Assembly (NCBI RefSeq): GCF_028368975.1
Contig: NZ_JAQNDM010000002.1
Span: forward strand, 9,852,425-9,916,424
Length of the DNA: 64,000 nucleotides
Direction of reading: 5' to 3'
DNA from: Stigmatella ashevillena
Lineage (GTDB): Bacteria > Myxococcota > Myxococcia > Myxococcales > Myxococcaceae
The translations under genes and the position numbers were made by a program. The notes below the pieces were generated by a model, which saw nothing but the letters and a program-made list of their open reading frames with translations, did not search any database and was not told where the DNA came from. Within the stretch, counting starts at the first letter, position 1. Each line of letters starts with the position of its first letter. This document shows, one piece after another, positions 8,035 to 29,031 of this stretch.

Positions 8035-9951
8035 CTATGTAGATCCGCGAGCCTTGCCGAACTTGCTTCCGAGCCGCGTGGTAATAATCGCGTCCTCTGT
8101 GACCAGCCCAAGCAATGCCATCGTCAATGCGTGAGGCGAGCGCAACTCCTTGTCCACCTCCTGTGAAGGAAGAAGGGAGCGAAGGTACTCGGAGTGAGCG
8201 ACTTTGGCGACAGCGACCTCTTTGTAGACGTTCAGAACCTCGACTCCTATCTGCTCGGCAAAGTGGTCCGGGTACTGAGACTGGTAATGATCGATCTGCT
8301 GAGTGAGTACTGGATGCTCCACATTTAGAAGCACTACGCCACCAGGGAACTCTGGGTCATGGGGCTGCCAAGCCGCGAGCAACCCCTTGTGCTCCATGTC
8401 CTCGGCTTTGACGGCTCTACAATGAGGTAGTCCACCACCCACACGAGTTGGACGCGCTGGAACATTGCCAGGAACAGAGCCTATTCGCTCTTGACCTGCG
8501 GTCCCTCCAACTCCGCCAGAAGAGCCGCTGCTGCTACTACCTTTCGTAGCAGCCGTTGAACCGGACGACTTCTCCCCCCTCTGAACGGGCTTGACGGTTG
8601 CTCCTCCTGACTGTTGAGCAACAAGGCGGGTCATCTTCCATCGTGAGCCGAAGCGCTCGATGAGTCGGTCTCGCCATGCTTCATCATCGATAGACTTGGC
8701 ATCACCCGCCCTCGCTTCTGCAAGAGCCTTTCTAACCGCATCGGGCATCCTGTCTGCAAACTCATTCGCCCACTCATTGATTGGCAGGTCGTCTCCCGCA
8801 TTGGGCCCACCCCGAAGCTTGAGCGCGTTGCGATCCGTGGTTGGGAAAACTCCACGCCGCGTCTTGGGATCGAACTCCTGTGGACGAAACACTGCCCATA
8901 GGCGCTGACGAACGGGAGTGCTGCTCACGCCAAGTGCACGGTAGACTGAGTGATGGGTCTGATAGTTATACAATTCGTTCTTATACAACGCAGCAATGAA
9001 CCCGTACTGAGGAGCATAGCCGTGGACCTGCGGTCGCCCTCCTGACCAGAGAAACCAATCAACATTGGTTCCATCACTGAGTTCGATCGTCCCCTTGTCG
9101 GCTAACTTACCGCCTTCAAAACCGCTTGGATATTCGATCCAATGGCGAGCGCCCTGAATGAGCCGCTTCGTATTCGCCCGCGTCTCGTCGGTACGAGCCT
9201 CCTTTTCGCTCCGTGGCCACTTAGACTTGGTGTCAGAGCGGAAGTTATCAACATAAACCTCAACCCCCGCGGGGAACGTCCAAATTCGTTGGTTGAGGTA
9301 CTTTGCCACACCGTGCACACCCGCCTCTCCGCGGTTTGGATCTCCAAGCACGGTGTCCTCTTGCGCGCTATTTCCCAGAAGTACAACGACTGTGCCATGC
9401 TCTTTGAGCCACGGCGGCTTGATAGCGGCCCAATCGCAACCGTGCTCAGGATCGTTGAATGGACGAACGACAGTTTCGATAGTCGTTACTCCACTATCGT
9501 CCTCAGCGTCCAGATAACGGAGACCATACTCACCCGTATCAGGGTCACGTTGGAGCCATACCATCGAAGGATCCCCGTTGACCCAGGACACGACAACCAC
9601 CCCATGAGTGTTCCAGGGCAGGATCGAGGTCTTCGACCCCACGCCAAAGTTCTCAGCCTCACCACCAATTGGCTTTCCTCCACCGCCGAACGTGTTGAAG
9701 AATTCGATTAGTTGCTCGGAGGTCATCCCATTGCCATTATCAGCGATGAGTCGGCGATATACGCCCTTCGACTCAACTGCCTGCCATTCGATGCCATACT
9801 CAATTCGGGTGGCATTGGCTTCGATAGAGTTGATGAGAGTCTCGCGAACCCACTGAAAGGCGCCACCTTCACGGTATGTCCTCTCGATGAAATGCTGGGT
9901 GCCAGCGGCCTTCATCGGGGAAAGACGACTCGACGACCTTTTTGCCACCAT
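8035..9951 (-). CDS. GHKL (MORC/Hsp90-like) ATPase
   Basis: The start is taken at ATG 9951 (AAGGA upstream); a GTG at 10026 would add an unlikely 25 residues. 638 residues. The N-terminal ATP-binding Bergerat fold shows the N-box RETLINSIEANAT (Asn41), DNGNGM (G1 box), FNTFGGGGKPIG (lid) and FGVGSKTSIL (G2 box). The middle is an uncharacterised alpha/beta region. A Ser/Gly linker (about residues 485-515) then joins a C-terminal domain of ~125 residues. Stand-alone GHKL proteins of this type have been linked by comparative genomics to restriction or defence loci and to MORC origins. A defence role here is inferred only from the accessory setting beside tRNA-like repeats. Confidence 0.8.
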   Translation of the reverse strand: MVAKRSSSRLSPMKAAGTQHFIERTYREGGAFQWVRETLINSIEANATRIEYGIEWQAVESKGVYRRLIADNGNGMTSEQLIEFFNTFGGGGKPIGGEAENFGVGSKTSILPWNTHGVVVVSWVNGDPSMVWLQRDPDTGEYGLRYLDAEDDSGVTTIETVVRPFNDPEHGCDWAAIKPPWLKEHGTVVVLLGNSAQEDTVLGDPNRGEAGVHGVAKYLNQRIWTFPAGVEVYVDNFRSDTKSKWPRSEKEARTDETRANTKRLIQGARHWIEYPSGFEGGKLADKGTIELSDGTNVDWFLWSGGRPQVHGYAPQYGFIAALYKNELYNYQTHHSVYRALGVSSTPVRQRLWAVFRPQEFDPKTRRGVFPTTDRNALKLRGGPNAGDDLPINEWANEFADRMPDAVRKALAEARAGDAKSIDDEAWRDRLIERFGSRWKMTRLVAQQSGGATVKPVQRGEKSSGSTAATKGSSSSGSSGGVGGTAGQERIGSVPGNVPARPTRVGGGLPHCRAVKAEDMEHKGLLAAWQPHDPEFPGGVVLLNVEHPVLTQQIDHYQSQYPDHFAEQIGVEVLNVYKEVAVAKVAHSEYLRSLLPSQEVDKELRSPHALTMALLGLVTEDAIITTRLGSKFGKARGST

Positions 9952-10052
9952 GGCGCTGCTGTCCTTGCCTATGCACGAGGCTTTGAACTTGGGCTTGGAC
10001 GGAACTGCCCAGGCCCACAGGGGCACATTACTATGAGGACTTCCTGCTTCAA

Positions 10053-10136
10053 TTTGGAGGCGGTTGGAATCGACCCCGCAACAAGGCGGCAGGTCGCGCT
10101 GTTACCGGCTAACGCCTTGATCTCACACCGGATCGC
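10053..10136 (-). repeat. tRNA-like repeat, copy C
   Basis: Shares with copy B the T-loop block (GGAATCGA, then CCCCGCAACAAGGCGG) and an identical 38-bp block starting CAGGTCGCGCTGTTACCGG, but lacks the 15-nt segment. CAAGGCG and CGCCTTG can pair around an inner GTTA/TAAC hairpin. The repeat lies about 100 bp upstream of the ATPase start on one side and within about 20 bp of the next gene's first open codon on the other. It marks the right edge of the accessory segment. Confidence 0.6.
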
Positions 10137-10180
10137 TCCCCATACGCAGGCTGCACCTGTCCTTCGAAGAGCTCCGGGGC

Positions 10181-11458
10181 TTGGCGAGCGCCGATCTCCA
10201 GCCGCCGATCGTGGTCCATCAGAACGGTCAGCCCCAGGTCTACGGGACCCTGAAAACGCTCCTCGATCATTTCAAGAGCACCCCAGGGCTCACCGAGCGC
10301 GCCACCTGCTTCTTCAGCCCCAGCGGGAGTGGCAATATCGCCGTCCTTGGCTGGGATCACGCGATGGTGATCAAGCGGCTGCAGGGTCGATACTGCGTGA
10401 CGGACATCTACGCGCACTTCGGCAAGACCCGCTCCTCGCCGGCGCAACCCATCTTTGGGCATGTCTCGCTCGGGAGACCGATCGAGCGGCTCGACAGTGG
10501 CAGGGGAGTCAGCAACTTCTCGTTCCATCCGCACCCGTGCAAGAGCTGCAAGGGCGAGTGCAGGTGGGTGCGTGTCGCGCTCCCTCAGCCCGTGCACATC
10601 GATCGCGTCGTCACCTTCCAAGCCAGCTCCTGCTCGGTGTGCATCCTCCATCACCAGAACAACAGCGAGATCGTCATCTCGCACATGGACGACGGGCCGC
10701 CCATCCCTGTCGGGCATATCTACCGTCAAATCTTCGGGCCGCCGACCTTCCCGCTGCACGTGATCGCTTCGGTGTTCCCGGACTTCGGCGAGATGCAAAA
10801 GGTGGCGCAGAGCTGCGCCGTGGTCGGCGCCGAGCCGATCTTCTTTCGCCGCGGGCCGATGACACCTGATGGTTCGTCCGCCTACCTCGGTTGGAGTAAC
10901 CTCGAGTCTGGGATCCTCTTCCCGCCGGCGGCGCCCTGCGCCACGTTCCTCGGGGTCGTCGGCGCGGCGCAGGTCTACAAGACGGCCATCGTGAAAGAGC
11001 TGCTGAGGTACGGCCCCTCTCGCACGCTCGTACCGACCGCGTTCCAGGGCTTGAGGGGCTGGACTCATCACGGGCTCAGGCTCGATCATATCCTCCACAT
11101 GACGGAGCATGAGCTGACCAACCTCAGCGTGACGCTCCACGGGACACAGTTCGGCCTCACCCACCTGTTTCTGGCCAACCAGATTGGCTTGGCGCTGTTC
11201 GCGCTCAATCGGTCCGGTTCCGAGCTGCCGCGCCTCAAGTCGGCGAACGAGACGAGCTACTCCGCCGCGGGGCTCCGAGCGCTGCTCATCTATGCCCACA
11301 TCTCGGATGGCGTGAAGAACGAGAAATTGATCGCGGAGGTCGTCGAGCTCATCGAGACGCTGACACCCCTCCTGCAGTTCGCGTTTGCCGTCCCGCTGAA
11401 CCCTGCGACGCGCCAAGTCATGAGGGAGGCGCTGGGCAGACTGCGGAGGCCGAGCTGA
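10181..11458 (+). CDS. Unknown Cys-motif protein, start probably lost
   Basis: The frame is open from 10121 to 11458. There is no ATG or GTG near the beginning; TTG 10181 is only the first usable codon, and the protein-like text already runs upstream (RRLHLSFEELRGL). The gene may therefore be 5'-truncated by the tRNA-like repeat ending at 10136, or start at an unusual codon. About 425 residues. HPHPCKSCKGECRW (~112-125) and ASSCSVCILHH (~150-160) give two CxxC pairs suggesting a zinc site. The C-terminal half is helical with no recognised domain. A 435-aa open frame on the opposite strand is lower-quality, Arg-rich shadow. Confidence 0.6.
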   Translation: MASADLQPPIVVHQNGQPQVYGTLKTLLDHFKSTPGLTERATCFFSPSGSGNIAVLGWDHAMVIKRLQGRYCVTDIYAHFGKTRSSPAQPIFGHVSLGRPIERLDSGRGVSNFSFHPHPCKSCKGECRWVRVALPQPVHIDRVVTFQASSCSVCILHHQNNSEIVISHMDDGPPIPVGHIYRQIFGPPTFPLHVIASVFPDFGEMQKVAQSCAVVGAEPIFFRRGPMTPDGSSAYLGWSNLESGILFPPAAPCATFLGVVGAAQVYKTAIVKELLRYGPSRTLVPTAFQGLRGWTHHGLRLDHILHMTEHELTNLSVTLHGTQFGLTHLFLANQIGLALFALNRSGSELPRLKSANETSYSAAGLRALLIYAHISDGVKNEKLIAEVVELIETLTPLLQFAFAVPLNPATRQVMREALGRLRRPS

Positions 11459-21919: not shown

Positions 21920-23431
21920 TCACCCCTTCAGGGGGTTCTTCTTCTTGAGCATTTCCTGCACGAGCCGCGCGGCGCGCATTCCCGCCAGGAACTCGCCCTC
22001 CAGGCCAAGCCCAGGCAGCACCTCGCGACCCGCAAGCAGGATGTTCTTCGCCTGCGTGCGCTGGTTCAAACCCGTGACGCCCAGGAAGGCTTCCGCCTCG
22101 AAGGAGTAGAGGGGGTGGGGCATCAGCCTGCTTCCGCGCACCCCCCCTGCGTCCAGGTAGGGCACCGAGTGCAGCACCCGCTGGTTGCGGGTGAAGGGCA
22201 TCAGCGCATCCAGGTGCGCGTCGATCCGCTGGGCCACCTTCTGGAGGTGTTCCTCGCCCAGGTCCCGTGTGCTGGCGGGGATGAACACCCCGGCGCAGAG
22301 GACCCGCAGCGCCTCGTCCTCCTTGCCGCCCGGGGTGCGCGCTGGGTGCTGCTGGATCAACATCGCGCCCAGCTCCGCGTCCTCGGTGTCCACCAGCAGC
22401 AGCTCGCCCATGCCGCGCGGCAGCGCCGCCACCGGCACCACCCAGTTCACCGCGAACAGCAGCGAGCGGGTCGTCGAGGCATCCAACTGCTCCAACAGGC
22501 CCCGGTGCCGCTTGCGGTCCGTGACGAGCCGCCGCAGGGCGCCCGAGTCCGTGGCGGCCACCAGGCACGAGGCCCGGTAGACGACGTCCGAGCGCAGCAC
22601 CTTCACGCCCTCGAAGCGGGCCCCGTCGAAGGTGAGCTCCTCGACGATGAAGCTCTCGGAGTTCTCCCGGCTGAGCACGTCCCCGCCCAGCTCGGCCAGC
22701 CGCTTGACCAGCAACTCCCTCAGCCCTTCGATGCCGCCGGGATAGCGCTGGGGCGCCTGGAGCGCCTGGGACAGGGGGCGGGTGAGGGCCAGCGGCCCGG
22801 AGGACTTGTCCAGATGGGTGAGGAAGGGCTGAAGCCCGCGCAGCAAGGCCCCGGGCGGGGTGTTGCTGGACAGCCGGGGGTGGGCCTCCAGGCCCGCGTG
22901 CTGGCGGATCTTCTTGTTGAGCTTCCACGTCTCGAGCATGCCGTCCGGGGGAAGGTTGGGCTGCTCCTTGAAGAAGGCGTCGCTGGCCTCGTGCTGGGTG
23001 GTGGTGGCGGAGAGCGCCGAGAACAGGCCCTCGGCCGTCTCGCCGAACTCGCGCCCCAGCTCCGCGCGGCGCCGCGTCAGGTCGCCGTGCAGATCCACCC
23101 GGTGGCGCGGCAGGATGAGCTGCAACTCGGGCACGTGGGGCCGCAGGTTGCGCTGAATCGTGGAGGCAAGGCCCAGCTCGGTGAAGGCCTCCTCCACCGC
23201 GGGCATGGCCTTCAGGGACGGGGTGATGGACGGGGTGTAGGGCAGCACGTAGCCCCCGTGCTCGTAGCCGGTGCCCGTGCCGTCGTGTTCGATCAACAGG
23301 ACCCGGTGGCTGCGCCGGGCCAGGAGCGCGGCCGCGAGGGCCCCGCCGATCTGGCTGCCCAGGACAATCACGTCATAGACATGCCGGGAAGGGCCCGAGG
23401 GAAGCTGGAGTCTGGCTGGTTGCGTCGCCAT
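21920..23431 (-). CDS. FAD-dependent oxidoreductase (phytoene desaturase-like)
   Basis: 503 residues. The Rossmann FAD motif DVIVLGSQIGGALAAAL plus RVLLIEHD occupies residues 20-50. A middle substrate-binding region contains YPGGIEGLRELLVKRLAELG, characteristic of the CrtI/carotenoid isomerase superfamily. The C-terminal FAD block is LAGREVLPGLGLEGEFLAG. It lacks a signal peptide. Fold assignment is firm but the substrate is unknown; carotenoid or polyprenyl chemistry is possible. A prenyltransferase/lycopene-cyclase-domain operon lies 2.3 kb away on the other strand. It ends with a Lys-rich tail (EMLKKKNPLKG). The HAD gene lies just upstream (12-bp gap). Confidence 0.8.
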   Translation of the reverse strand: MATQPARLQLPSGPSRHVYDVIVLGSQIGGALAAALLARRSHRVLLIEHDGTGTGYEHGGYVLPYTPSITPSLKAMPAVEEAFTELGLASTIQRNLRPHVPELQLILPRHRVDLHGDLTRRRAELGREFGETAEGLFSALSATTTQHEASDAFFKEQPNLPPDGMLETWKLNKKIRQHAGLEAHPRLSSNTPPGALLRGLQPFLTHLDKSSGPLALTRPLSQALQAPQRYPGGIEGLRELLVKRLAELGGDVLSRENSESFIVEELTFDGARFEGVKVLRSDVVYRASCLVAATDSGALRRLVTDRKRHRGLLEQLDASTTRSLLFAVNWVVPVAALPRGMGELLLVDTEDAELGAMLIQQHPARTPGGKEDEALRVLCAGVFIPASTRDLGEEHLQKVAQRIDAHLDALMPFTRNQRVLHSVPYLDAGGVRGSRLMPHPLYSFEAEAFLGVTGLNQRTQAKNILLAGREVLPGLGLEGEFLAGMRAARLVQEMLKKKNPLKG

Positions 23432-25771: not shown

Positions 25772-26707
25772 GTGAATCCCACGCAGCGATGGGTGTATGC
25801 GCTGAAGCCCGCGAGCTGGCCGAAAGTGTTCGTTCCAGCGGTGCTGGGGCAGGCCGTGGGGGCCGCCAGCGCGGGCCGGCTGTCGGCGGGGGCGCTGGCC
25901 TTTGGCCTGCTCTGGATGCTCGCGGACGTCGCCTTCATTGTGCTGCTCAACGACTGGGGGGATCGCGAGGTGGATGCCCTCAAGCGACGCATGTTCCCGA
26001 AGGGGTGCTCACCGAAAACCATCCCCGATGGCATTCTGCCCGCCCGGGCCCTGCTCGTGGCGGGCCTCGGGGCGGGGGTGTTGGCCCTGCTCGTCGCTGG
26101 AGTCGCAGGGGTGCTCCTGGCGCGCCCGGCGTTGCTTCCCCTGGCGGCGCTGGGCCTGTTCGTGTTTGCCGCCTACACGTTGCCGCCCTTGCGGCTCAAT
26201 TACCGGGGTGGGGGCGAGGTGCTGGAGATGGTGGGGGTGGGTGGTGTGCTGCCTGCTCTGCATGCCTATGCGCAGTGTGGCCAGTGGGCGCCTCTGGAGC
26301 TGAAGCTCCTGGCCCCGGGCCTGCTGGCGCTCTGTCTGTCGAGCGCCCTGGCCAGTGGGCTGTCCGACGAAGAGAGTGACCGGGCCGGAGGCAAGCGCAC
26401 CTTCACCACGCTTCTGGGCAATCCGGTGTCTCGCCGGGCCTCCGAGGCCCTGTTGGTGCTGGGGGCGCTGCTCTGGCTCGGCGCCGCGTGGCTGAGCGGC
26501 AACGCACTTCCGCGGGGAGGTTTGGTGCTGGCCGCGCTGCTCACGTTATTCTTCGCGGCGCGCGTGTGGAGGAAGAGTCCGTCGGCGGTGACGAATGCTT
26601 TTGGTGCGCAAGCGGCCTACAAGCTGGAGCTGCATCGTGCCATCTGGTGGGCAACCCTCGCACTCTCCGCGTGGGTGCTTGCCACGGGCCTGGGTGAGCG
26701 ACGGTGA
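25772..26707 (+). CDS. UbiA-family prenyltransferase (first copy)
   Basis: 311 residues from GTG 25772, about eight membrane helices. First Asp-rich motif LLNDWGDREVD (residues ~58-68, NDxxDxxxD form) and second GLSDEESDRAGGKRT (~194-208) are the Mg-prenyl diphosphate sites of UbiA/MenA enzymes. YTLPPLRLNYRGGGEVLEM is the conserved Y-x-x-x-P...RGxGE block. It transfers a polyprenyl chain to an acceptor of unknown identity. Its stop overlaps the next gene's GTG by 4 bp (GTGA). A paralogue lies two genes on. Confidence 0.88.
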   Translation: MNPTQRWVYALKPASWPKVFVPAVLGQAVGAASAGRLSAGALAFGLLWMLADVAFIVLLNDWGDREVDALKRRMFPKGCSPKTIPDGILPARALLVAGLGAGVLALLVAGVAGVLLARPALLPLAALGLFVFAAYTLPPLRLNYRGGGEVLEMVGVGGVLPALHAYAQCGQWAPLELKLLAPGLLALCLSSALASGLSDEESDRAGGKRTFTTLLGNPVSRRASEALLVLGALLWLGAAWLSGNALPRGGLVLAALLTLFFAARVWRKSPSAVTNAFGAQAAYKLELHRAIWWATLALSAWVLATGLGERR

Positions 26708-27429
26708 GTGAACTCTCAGAAGGTCTTCGCCTCGAGTTGCAGCGGCTGGAGCCTCTGCTGGGGGCGTGTGCTTCGTTGGATGCCACCCGGTCCCGGGCCT
26801 CTCTTCCCTGGGAGTTGGCGGAGAGTCTGGTGGAGGGCTCCGGTGAGGCGGAGCGGAGCCGGGCCTTCGCTCAGGGATTGATCGAGGTGGTGCGTGCCAT
26901 CGTGGAGGACTTCCCGGACAACATCTTCTGGGACCTGGACTATCTGGCCGGTCGGCTCTGGCTCGCGGGCGGGCCCCAGGAGACGGCGCATCTCGCGGGC
27001 CGGGTGGTGAGGCTGTGCCGGGGTTTTGGCAACAAGTCCGTGCTGCGCTTCCGGTACATCCATGACTTCCTGTTCGGTTACGACTGGGCCCGCTGGGTCC
27101 TGCGCCAACCGGACGCGCGCGCGAACACCGGGCCGTTCGACTTGGGGTTCCTGGACTACCTCGATGCCCGGCGCGAGGAGCTCGTGGAGCTGATTGCCAG
27201 AAATGACGCCAAGTATGGCCCGCTTCGAGGCAAGGAGTTCCGCAACCCCTTCATCTTCTGCCGCGAGCCCCCCGACGAGTCCCAACTGCATCAAGTGCTT
27301 GCCCAGGCGGATCTCATCCCCGTCAAGGCCTGGCGCTTCGATGGGGAGCGCCGCTGGCACCTTCCCTTCGCTGACCTGAGGGCCGAGGCGGCCCTGCGCC
27401 TGGGCTTGGCGCGAAGAGACGGTCCATGA
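26704..27429 (+). CDS. Unknown protein between two UbiA genes
   Basis: 241 residues with no recognised domain. Cytosolic, acidic and largely helical. Notable blocks are EDFPDNIFWDLDYLAGRLW, FGNKSVLRFRYIHDFLFGYD and FRNPFIFCREPPDESQLHQV. Start GTG overlaps the first UbiA stop, and its stop overlaps the second UbiA ATG, so production is tightly coupled to both prenyltransferases. This suggests a subunit or acceptor-modifying partner, which is inference only. Confidence 0.7.
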   Translation: MSELSEGLRLELQRLEPLLGACASLDATRSRASLPWELAESLVEGSGEAERSRAFAQGLIEVVRAIVEDFPDNIFWDLDYLAGRLWLAGGPQETAHLAGRVVRLCRGFGNKSVLRFRYIHDFLFGYDWARWVLRQPDARANTGPFDLGFLDYLDARREELVELIARNDAKYGPLRGKEFRNPFIFCREPPDESQLHQVLAQADLIPVKAWRFDGERRWHLPFADLRAEAALRLGLARRDGP

Positions 27430-28334
27430 AGGAGAGAGGGGCGCTGCTCCGGTCTTGGATTCAAGCGTCCCGGTTGCCCTCGCAATCGTATATCGCGCTC
27501 CCCTTGTTGCTCGGGCAGCTCGTCGCCGTGCGCGCGCGCGGGGAGACGCTCGAGTACGGAACGCTGGTGGGGGTGCAGCTCTTCGGATTCTTCGATCAGC
27601 TCTTCATCGTCTACGCCAATGACTGGGCAGACCAGGAGACGGATCGCCGCAACCAGACGGCCACTGTCTTCTCGGGGGGCTCCCGCGTGCTGGTCGAGGG
27701 ACGGATCTCTCCCCGGGCACTGGGCTGGGCGGCGGTGGCCTGCGCGGGGGCGTTGCTGACCGTGTCGGTGGGGTTGGCGGTGGCCCAAGGCGCGCCAGGG
27801 CTCGTGCCGTTGGCCCTCGCCGCGCTCGGGCTGTTGTGGGCTTACAGCTATTCCCCCCTGCGGCTCTCCTATCGTGGGGGGGGAGAACTCCTTCAGATGG
27901 TGGGAGTCGCGGGCGTGCTCCCGCTGTATGGCTACCTCGCGCAAGGGGGCTCGCTCGGGGATTTTCCCTGGCTCCTGGCCTTGTCGCTGCTGCCCACGCA
28001 CCTGGCCTGTTCGATCGCCACCGCGCTTCCGGACGAGCCCTCGGATCGGGAGAGCGGCAAGCGCACGGTGCCCGTCCGGCTCGGGGGCGAGGGGGCGGTG
28101 TGGGCCATCGCAGCGCTGAATGCCCTCACGCTCGCGCTGACCCCGCTCGGGTGGGCCGCCGTGGGGCTGACCGTGGGCTGGGAACTCCTCGTTCCAGCCG
28201 CCGCCACGTTGGCGGTGCTGAGCTTGCGCCCCGCGCCCCCTGGCTCCCGCCTCATCCAGGTGCGGGTCGCGGCTTGCATCACCGCGACCCTGGCCGGGGT
28301 GGGGATACCCCTCCTGGGTCTGGCGAGCCGGTGA
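27426..28334 (+). CDS. UbiA-family prenyltransferase (second copy)
   Basis: 302 residues, about eight membrane helices. Asp-rich motifs YANDWADQETDRR (~63-75) and ALPDEPSDRESGKRT (~199-213), plus YSYSPLRLSYRGGGELLQM, nearly the same block as in the first UbiA gene, so the two are paralogues. The MenA-like pattern suggests an aromatic or isoprenoid acceptor. ATGA overlap with the upstream gene; 7 bp to the lycopene-cyclase-domain gene. Confidence 0.88.
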   Translation: MKERGALLRSWIQASRLPSQSYIALPLLLGQLVAVRARGETLEYGTLVGVQLFGFFDQLFIVYANDWADQETDRRNQTATVFSGGSRVLVEGRISPRALGWAAVACAGALLTVSVGLAVAQGAPGLVPLALAALGLLWAYSYSPLRLSYRGGGELLQMVGVAGVLPLYGYLAQGGSLGDFPWLLALSLLPTHLACSIATALPDEPSDRESGKRTVPVRLGGEGAVWAIAALNALTLALTPLGWAAVGLTVGWELLVPAAATLAVLSLRPAPPGSRLIQVRVAACITATLAGVGIPLLGLASR

Positions 28335-28341
28335 GGCGGCC

Positions 28342-29031
28342 GTGGCCTACGACTTCCTGGTGCTGGCGCTGCTGTTCCTGGTCCCGGGAGCCCTCATCTG
28401 GCTGCTGCGGCCGGATTTGCGTGGGCTGATGGGCAGGGCTGTCCTGCTCTCGCTCCCGTTCGCGGCGACGGAGTGGCTCTTCTATCCGGAGTACTGGGCC
28501 CCGAGGTTCCTGTTCGGGCTGGCGGACCGGCTCGGGTTCGGCATCGAGGACGTGCTGTTTGTCACAGGGCTGGGCGCCTTTTCCTCCACCGCCTATGCCG
28601 TCGCCTTTCGTCGGCGGGTGATGGCCAGGGCAAGTTCCTCCAGGCCCTGGCAGCGGTCCGTGGGCGCCATCGTGGCCGTGCTGGCCCTGGCGGGAGGATT
28701 GCGGATGGTGGGCCTGCCCATCCTCTATGCCGCCGTCGTGGCGATGGGGGCGGGCGCCGTGGGGGTGCTGAAGGTGAGGCCAGACCTACGGGGGCCGGGC
28801 CTCCTGGGGGCGCTGGTGTCGGTGGCGATCTACCTCGGGTTGTGCCTGATCTTCGCGGCGCTCGTCCCCGGTGTCTTCGAGCGTGCGTGGCGGCCAAGCC
28901 TCTTGCTGCCGGGCCGGTTCCTGGGCGTTCCGCTCGATGAGTTGCTGTACGGCTGGGGCGCGGGGCTCGCCGCCACGGTGTTTCCAGCCTGGGCCTTCGG
29001 CTTCGGTTTCACGCCGCTCCCGCGCCGGTGA
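28342..29031 (+). CDS. Lycopene-cyclase-domain membrane protein
   Basis: 229 residues from GTG 28342, six to seven hydrophobic helices arranged as two similar halves. Each half begins with an LLRPDLRG / KVRPDLRG element. They then carry GFGIEDVLFVTGLGAF and GVPLDELLYGWGAG, matching the P-(I/L)-(E/D)-(E/D)-x-L-(F/Y) motif of CrtYcd/CarR-type lycopene cyclases. It probably acts on a linear polyprenyl or carotenoid product in the inner membrane. It is last in the UbiA-unknown-UbiA operon. C50 carotenoid loci also pair UbiA-type elongases with such cyclases. Confidence 0.72.
   Translation: MAYDFLVLALLFLVPGALIWLLRPDLRGLMGRAVLLSLPFAATEWLFYPEYWAPRFLFGLADRLGFGIEDVLFVTGLGAFSSTAYAVAFRRRVMARASSSRPWQRSVGAIVAVLALAGGLRMVGLPILYAAVVAMGAGAVGVLKVRPDLRGPGLLGALVSVAIYLGLCLIFAALVPGVFERAWRPSLLLPGRFLGVPLDELLYGWGAGLAATVFPAWAFGFGFTPLPRR

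Follow-up and report, generated by a model that had tools for sequence, protein, structure and literature searches.

The window analysed here, a stretch of 64,000 nucleotides from Stigmatella ashevillena (contig NZ_JAQNDM010000002.1, positions 9,852,425 to 9,916,424), contains at 25772-29031 an operon of four plus-strand open reading frames (ORFs) that encode a UbiA-family membrane prenyltransferase (UbiA1), an orphan protein (MID), a second UbiA-family prenyltransferase (UbiA2) and a lycopene-cyclase-domain membrane protein (LCYd) (Table 1). The four genes are encoded together, inherited together and subject to purifying selection. Our preferred reading of these sequences, which we hold tentatively and would stop short of calling probable, is that they form a self-contained and occasionally transferred cassette for a membrane prenyl lipid that would be both prenylated and cyclised at its chain end.

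Among 195 phylum genomes, UbiA1, UbiA2 and intact LCYd were each found in 20, and these were the same 20 genomes; MID was present in all of them, and in 22 overall once a match in G056 had been rejected as a Lon-protease-like ORF judged by eye (reducing the MID count from 23). A survey of the four-gene order, as proposed in the first-pass annotation, found it contiguous in 17 of the 20 carriers, the exceptions being G094, where LCYd lies ~22 kb off, G122, where 1.4 kb precedes LCYd, and G187, where UbiA1-MID is divergent from two ABC genes followed by UbiA2 and LCYd. Within the window's genus, three of the seven genomes listed do not carry the cassette. The junctions in the window are those first described: a 4-bp overlap of UbiA1 and MID (GTGA), a 4-bp overlap of MID and UbiA2 (ATGA), and a 7-bp gap before LCYd. 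The 4-bp overlaps recur in 19/19 tabulated loci for UbiA1/MID and in 18/18 for MID/UbiA2, with the proviso that the start codon nearest the homologous start was chosen by script, which favours agreement between loci. The spacing from UbiA2 to LCYd among 18 loci is +7 in 14, -4 in three and 1425 bp in one. Genes in the relatives' loci were called with a simple codon-usage script rather than an annotation pipeline, and the overlap and dN/dS (nonsynonymous to synonymous rate ratio) tables omit L054, include L049 for neither UbiA2 nor LCYd, and include L043 and L050 for MID only. Median pairwise dN/dS of the cassette genes is 0.27-0.39. The original observation is thus real, and stronger than first stated.

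The identification of two UbiA prenyltransferases held, both proteins passing the cut-off of the Pfam UbiA family (PF01040, 34.2 bits; scores in Table 1). The predicted metal- and diphosphate-binding motifs are retained in both, with N60, D61, D64, D68, D199, D203 and K208 of UbiA1 and N65, D66, D69, D73, D203, D207 and K212 of UbiA2 each invariant in 20/20 alignment rows. A nine-member UbiA2 alignment that extends to other phyla and to one paralogue from the window's own genome keeps all motif residues except the second. Judged against curated models, UbiA1 and UbiA2 are neither MenA nor heme O synthase, because those genes sit elsewhere in the genome and pass their cut-offs, whereas UbiA1 and UbiA2 score far below. 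The genome has eight UbiA-family places, seven of them above cut-off; these include a MenA adjoining genes that by eye resemble MenC and MenH (L002; 214 bits on TIGR00751, cut-off 102, and 344.8 on NF004751, cut-off 264), and a heme O synthase (L001; 281.5 bits on TIGR01473, cut-off 210.3). In contrast, the best score on any listed NCBIfam model is 42.3 bits for UbiA1 and 53.9 bits for UbiA2, all far under cut-off. Listed MenA models with cut-offs of 225-555 give 17.6-40.4 bits for UbiA1 and 17.4-53.9 bits for UbiA2, and TIGR00751 has no listed match to either at E <= 1. The possibility raised in the first-pass annotation, that the pair are standard MenA or UbiA enzymes of respiratory quinone synthesis, was therefore not borne out. 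In sequence searches of the PDB the UbiAs matched chlorophyll synthase and further proteins of the UbiA fold, though weakly. We note that the same genome holds a further divergent pair of UbiA-family genes, of which the 412-residue member has GGSRVLV like UbiA2, and that in G199 and G200 the gene next to UbiA2 encodes a third UbiA-like protein, ~284-295 residues long, that has seemingly lost NDxxDxxxD.

MID, which the first-pass annotation had called an uncharacterised soluble protein, has no match in Pfam or NCBIfam at E <= 1, and its largest 19-residue mean hydropathy of 0.65 indicates that it is probably soluble. Thirty columns are invariant in an alignment of 28 MID sequences, including N73, D77, R117, Y118, H120, D121, R139, R180, N181, R187, E192 and R226, a polar set of a kind that, we infer, is to be expected in a protein that binds a ligand or catalyses a reaction more than in a scaffold. 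The AlphaFold model built with the 28 sequences (mean predicted local distance difference test score, pLDDT, 93.9; predicted template modelling score 0.90) has twelve helices of at least four residues and no strand of three. A fold search with this model found no PDB chain at E <= 0.001. The best Foldseek E was 1.7 and the best VIA-align Z was 5.9, to a designed helical repeat (root-mean-square deviation, rmsd, 5.7 over 156 residues), a range rated uninformative; a PDB sequence search found nothing credible.

LCYd matches the Pfam lycopene cyclase family (Lycopene_cyc, PF18916, cut-off 27 bits) in its C-terminal half only, over residues 128-215, and seven relatives score 37.3-64 bits. The earlier description of LCYd as a two-domain protein is only partly supported: Pfam does not recognise the N-terminal half, and the alignment between the two halves is weak (hhalign probability 24%, E 8.5e-4). 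E69, D70 and E200 are invariant in 15 sequences. E69 and E200 also hold in relatives from Ilyobacter and Methylophaga, and D70 is lost in the 24%-identical Methylophaga relative. At a place comparable to these acids, canonical CrtYc and CrtYd carry PLEE, which we take to be their cyclase motif. The LCYd model (pLDDT 82.1) had a best fold match at E 0.51, and its alignment with MvINS, an Insig homologue, reached a Z of 7.3 (rmsd 4.7 over 166 residues), again in a range rated uninformative; a PDB sequence search with LCYd gave nothing credible.

Outside the family the cassette also appears in parts. A scan of genome contigs with the MID sequence alone found no relative; the alignment-based scan found 22 loci, of which Archangium, Pyxidicoccus, Myxococcus and Sorangium account for nine, cyanobacteria for five and other, non-cyanobacterial metagenome-assembled genomes (MAGs; two labelled Myxococcales) for eight. 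In all eight of these last loci, which are from neither Myxococcaceae nor Sorangium, UbiA1 adjoins MID, the two genes being divergent in L072 and L073. A UbiA2 orthologue is present in all seven of these MAG genomes that were searched (that of L075 being left out), linked in two and unlinked in five. Six of the seven score 198-288 bits, and G200, one of the unlinked cases, has a 101-bit piece at a contig end; UbiA1 proteins, fragments included, score ~88-129 bits on the same model. LCYd was found in four of 14 genomes searched outside the family, three Sorangium and G206, and in Sorangium So0157-2 (L064) it is in two pieces. G206 has all four genes, with an ABC ATPase and an ABC-2 permease (L081, by Pfam) between UbiA1-MID and UbiA2-LCYd; the ABC pair of G187 (L054), assigned by similarity to the L081 genes, has the same position. 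On a plasmid of Ilyobacter polytropus (Fusobacteriota), relatives of LCYd (43.6% identity over 97%) and UbiA2 (48.6% over 71%) adjoin with a 6-bp gap (ILYOP_RS12535-RS12530); this pair differs from the cassette in its reversed gene order, and neither UbiA1 nor MID has a match in the plasmid collection, the Ilyobacter plasmid included. We propose that the cassette may combine two modules, one of UbiA1+MID and one of UbiA2+LCYd. Partial sets occur in records labelled Fusobacteriota, Gemmatimonadetes, Latescibacterota, Gammaproteobacteria and Cyanobacteria. In a FastTree phylogeny of UbiA1+MID from 29 loci, Sorangium branches within the Myxococcaceae genera, with Archangium as its sister group (Shimodaira-Hasegawa-like support 0.96, midpoint root), and this nesting suggests that the Sorangium cassette was acquired by transfer. 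An apparent UbiA1-MID fusion in Sorangium L070 was rejected, its frame holding an unresolved residue.

Further LCYd-like proteins are encoded at two places on Methylophaga plasmids and on Croceicoccus plasmids, among transport, lipid, arsenic or housekeeping genes; no crt gene is annotated in the stretches seen around them, for which the gene tables are incomplete, the second of the Croceicoccus records carrying no annotation. In Methylophaga thalassica and Croceicoccus marinus the lycopene-cyclase-domain genes lie near genes of the isoprenylcysteine-carboxylmethyltransferase family, and the Methylophaga run also holds genes for a fatty acid cis/trans isomerase, a cyclopropane-fatty-acid synthase family protein, a phospholipase D-like protein and an ABC transporter. 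We discounted a match to LCYd on a Polaromonas plasmid that spans 39 residues (E 8e-3).

In the pathway that we propose, UbiA1 and UbiA2 would each use an allylic prenyl diphosphate, with Mg2+ held by NDxxDxxxD and DxxxD, and would attach chains in sequence to a membrane acceptor. MID would be a cytosolic partner of UbiA1 that prepares or delivers a polar acceptor, or handles diphosphate, by means of its invariant Arg/Asp/His set. LCYd would then protonate and cyclise the free chain end as lycopene cyclases do, with no need for lycopene. In some relatives the co-encoded ABC-2 transporter would export or flip the product, and at three Pyxidicoccus/Myxococcus-type loci a PMT_2-family membrane protein encoded upstream may glycosylate it. 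Both the anatomy and the survey fit the putative "prenylated and cyclised lipid" of the first-pass annotation.

Several observations weigh against this proposal. Among the minority of neighbouring genes that were scanned, none was recognised as a prenyl diphosphate synthase. The role given to MID is a guess from its invariant residues, and its partnership with UbiA1 is not obligate, because MID occurs without UbiA1 in G065, G126, cyanobacteria and Sorangium So ceGT47. In G065 UbiA1, UbiA2 and LCYd are in pieces and MID is intact at 241 codons, and in G126 MID persists alone, the other three genes gone, between flanking genes like those of other Pyxidicoccus/Myxococcus-type loci. When these two MIDs are compared with the rest, the ratios of nonsynonymous to synonymous polymorphism (pN/pS) have medians of 0.54 and 0.51, close to the family median of 0.50, so that no relaxed constraint is visible, in a weak test given that the losses may be recent. 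So ceGT47 (L067) has MID-UbiA2-LCYd with no intact UbiA1, only a weak trace upstream, and no UbiA1 was found in 4/4 cyanobacterial genomes searched that carry MID. The cyanobacterial MID homologues (33-36% identical) lie near genes that by eye are YjbQ-like and Nif3-like, neighbours that gave no functional clue. Two further points concern carotenoid supply. Five of six LCYd genomes checked, namely the window's own (G000), G187 and three Sorangium genomes (G195, G196 and G197), have both a CrtI above cut-off and PF00494 (phytoene/squalene synthase), and in G207, where UbiA1 and MID are on another contig than UbiA2 and LCYd has no match, the UbiA2 orthologue shares its contig with a CrtI gene ~7 kb away.

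These last points favour the best-placed rival, in which lycopene or another crt intermediate would be extended by C5 units, through one or both UbiAs, and have its ends cyclised by LCYd to give a C45 or C50 carotenoid; CrtEb with CrtYe/CrtYf works in this way in Corynebacterium. Two accounts describe a UbiA-family enzyme together with a CrtYcd-type cyclase as the hallmark of C50 clusters (PMC5401885, PMC2889829), and the co-encoding of a UbiA-family prenyltransferase with a CrtYcd/PF18916-type cyclase makes the cassette resemble such an elongase-cyclase system. It differs in having two UbiAs and the orphan helical protein, and in the absence of crtE/B/I beside the operon in the window, as the first-pass annotation had noted. 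The genome's crt cluster, with CrtI-family, phytoene synthase, CrtYc-like and CrtYd-like ORFs, lies near 3.87 Mb of the same 10.0-Mb contig on which the operon lies at 9.88 Mb, and LCYd aligns with the genome's own CrtYc and CrtYd at the PLEE-like motif only. The UbiAs fall far under the cut-offs of NF009516 (UbiA1 36.8 and UbiA2 36.9 bits, cut-off 205) and NF009608 (UbiA2 22.2 bits, cut-off 217), which are candidate models for lycopene elongases. A search with the desaturase-like protein of the window found no relative near the cassette outside the genus, crt genes in general not having been searched for systematically there.

Among 18 genomes tested, the CrtI family (TIGR02734) is above cut-off in 11 and below it in G199, G200, G202, G206 and three cyanobacterial genomes; cyanobacteria use another desaturase. 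PF00494 was found in 15 of the 18 and has no match in G199, G200 and G206, MAGs of unstated completeness in which a contig may be missing. Carotenoid precursors may be dispensable for the cassette, because these three UbiA1+MID MAGs have no phytoene synthase match and G206, whose best CrtI-family match is 147.7 bits against a cut-off of 238.1, nevertheless has the whole set. G199 and G200 are moreover alike, so that these absences are weak evidence, a point against our proposal; both of these genomes are also without LCYd. Overall, we consider a carotenoid elongase-cyclase unlikely, if still worth serious attention. The "long-chain carotenoid" of the first-pass annotation is weakened by G206 as a general role, and keeps in its favour the crt pathway of the window's own genome.

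Two other readings dispense with carotenoids. UbiA1 and UbiA2 could themselves be terpene cyclases acting on a prenyl diphosphate with no acceptor, LCYd cyclising further to yield a free terpene that some relatives export by ABC transporter. Intramembrane UbiA-type terpene synthases have been reported (PMC9835599), and a compact cassette with an exporter in two relatives would suit such a pathway; however, the cassette has no tailoring oxidase, and both UbiAs have full Asp-rich transferase motifs, which in themselves do not distinguish cyclase from transferase. We regard this as improbable. Very doubtful, in our estimate, is a second quinone or quinone-tail pathway, in which MenA-like paralogues would prenylate a naphthoquinol-type acceptor and LCYd would cyclise the end of the tail. 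Among NCBIfam models, UbiA2 and the UbiA1 of L081 come closest to NF004751, a MenA model whose cut-off the genome's own MenA exceeds, and UbiA-family membership is likewise shared with MenA/MxqL, the 1,4-dihydroxy-2-naphthoate prenyltransferase of the menaquinone and myxoquinone pathways. Myxobacteria do produce modified menaquinones, the myxoquinones, and PMC8955186 reports these from Myxococcus xanthus and Corallococcus, attributing them to a men-type cluster that includes a separate prenyltransferase, mxqL. In contrast, the cassette is patchy (20/195), its UbiAs score at most ~54 bits against the NF004751 cut-off of 264, and the genome's MenA is encoded elsewhere.

Table 1. Location of the cassette genes in the window and of the other features mentioned in the text
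Feature	Location	Strand	Remarks
UbiA1, membrane prenyltransferase	25772-26707	+	311 aa, GTG start; PF01040 76.6 bits; motifs NDWGDREVD and DEESDRAGGKRT
MID, soluble all-helical protein (predicted)	26704-27429	+	241 aa, GTG start; no Pfam/NCBIfam entry
UbiA2, membrane prenyltransferase	27426-28334	+	302 aa, ATG start; PF01040 85.7 bits; motifs NDWADQETD, FSGGSRVLVEG and DEPSDRESGKRT
LCYd, lycopene-cyclase-domain membrane protein	28342-29031	+	229 aa, GTG start; PF18916 44.6 bits; paired acids E69-D70 and D199-E200
Desaturase-like gene	21920-23431		ends 2341 bp from the operon
Amino acid permease gene	start 25662		upstream flank, divergent
MRJP-like gene	end 29047		downstream flank, convergent
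PMT_2-family glycosyltransferase-like gene	L051 10734-12047		
PMT_2-family glycosyltransferase-like gene	L053 11013-12317		
PMT_2-family glycosyltransferase-like gene	L050 7513-8841		upstream of MID alone
MID of G126	L050 8903-9625		MID alone
Cassette remnant of G065	L043 8770-10194		MID intact
Further UbiA-family pair of the window's genome	L058 6604-8906 (G000:C1)		
UbiA2 and third UbiA-like protein	L165 8409-10174 (G199)		
UbiA2 and third UbiA-like protein	L166 3957-5149 (G200)		
UbiA2 orthologue and CrtI gene	L164 23000-34377 (G207:C414)		
Cyanobacterial MID homologues	L077, L079, L083		MID ~9911-10670
Methylophaga thalassica plasmid run	L189 2221-14916		
Croceicoccus marinus plasmid run	L192 1330-3856		

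The desaturase-like oxidoreductase that the first-pass annotation had placed 2.3 kb away is indeed at that distance; its hinted membership of the set was not upheld, as it accompanies the cassette in the window's genus only. It was rejected as a cassette part together with the HAD, amino acid permease, MRJP and LysR genes, their linkage too being limited to that genus. The PMT_2-family gene lies directly upstream in its three loci (identified by Pfam in L050 and by clustering in the others).

A search of open-access literature, covering titles and the beginnings of abstracts, found no description of this four-gene operon. With rather less confidence than we attach to the cassette itself, it may be suggested that a lipid pathway has spread horizontally between myxobacterial orders, one that would combine a lycopene-cyclase-type enzyme working outside carotenoid metabolism, chains attached by a UbiA pair, and in MID a new all-helical enzyme family. 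If this is true, lycopene-cyclase-domain proteins encoded beside UbiAs should not be automatically annotated as carotenoid genes, and MID would be a new soluble family, its fold having no significant match in the PDB, that is linked with prenyl transfer inside the membrane. Stigmatella-like, Archangium, Pyxidicoccus and Sorangium strains would then harbour a previously unrecognised prenyl lipid.

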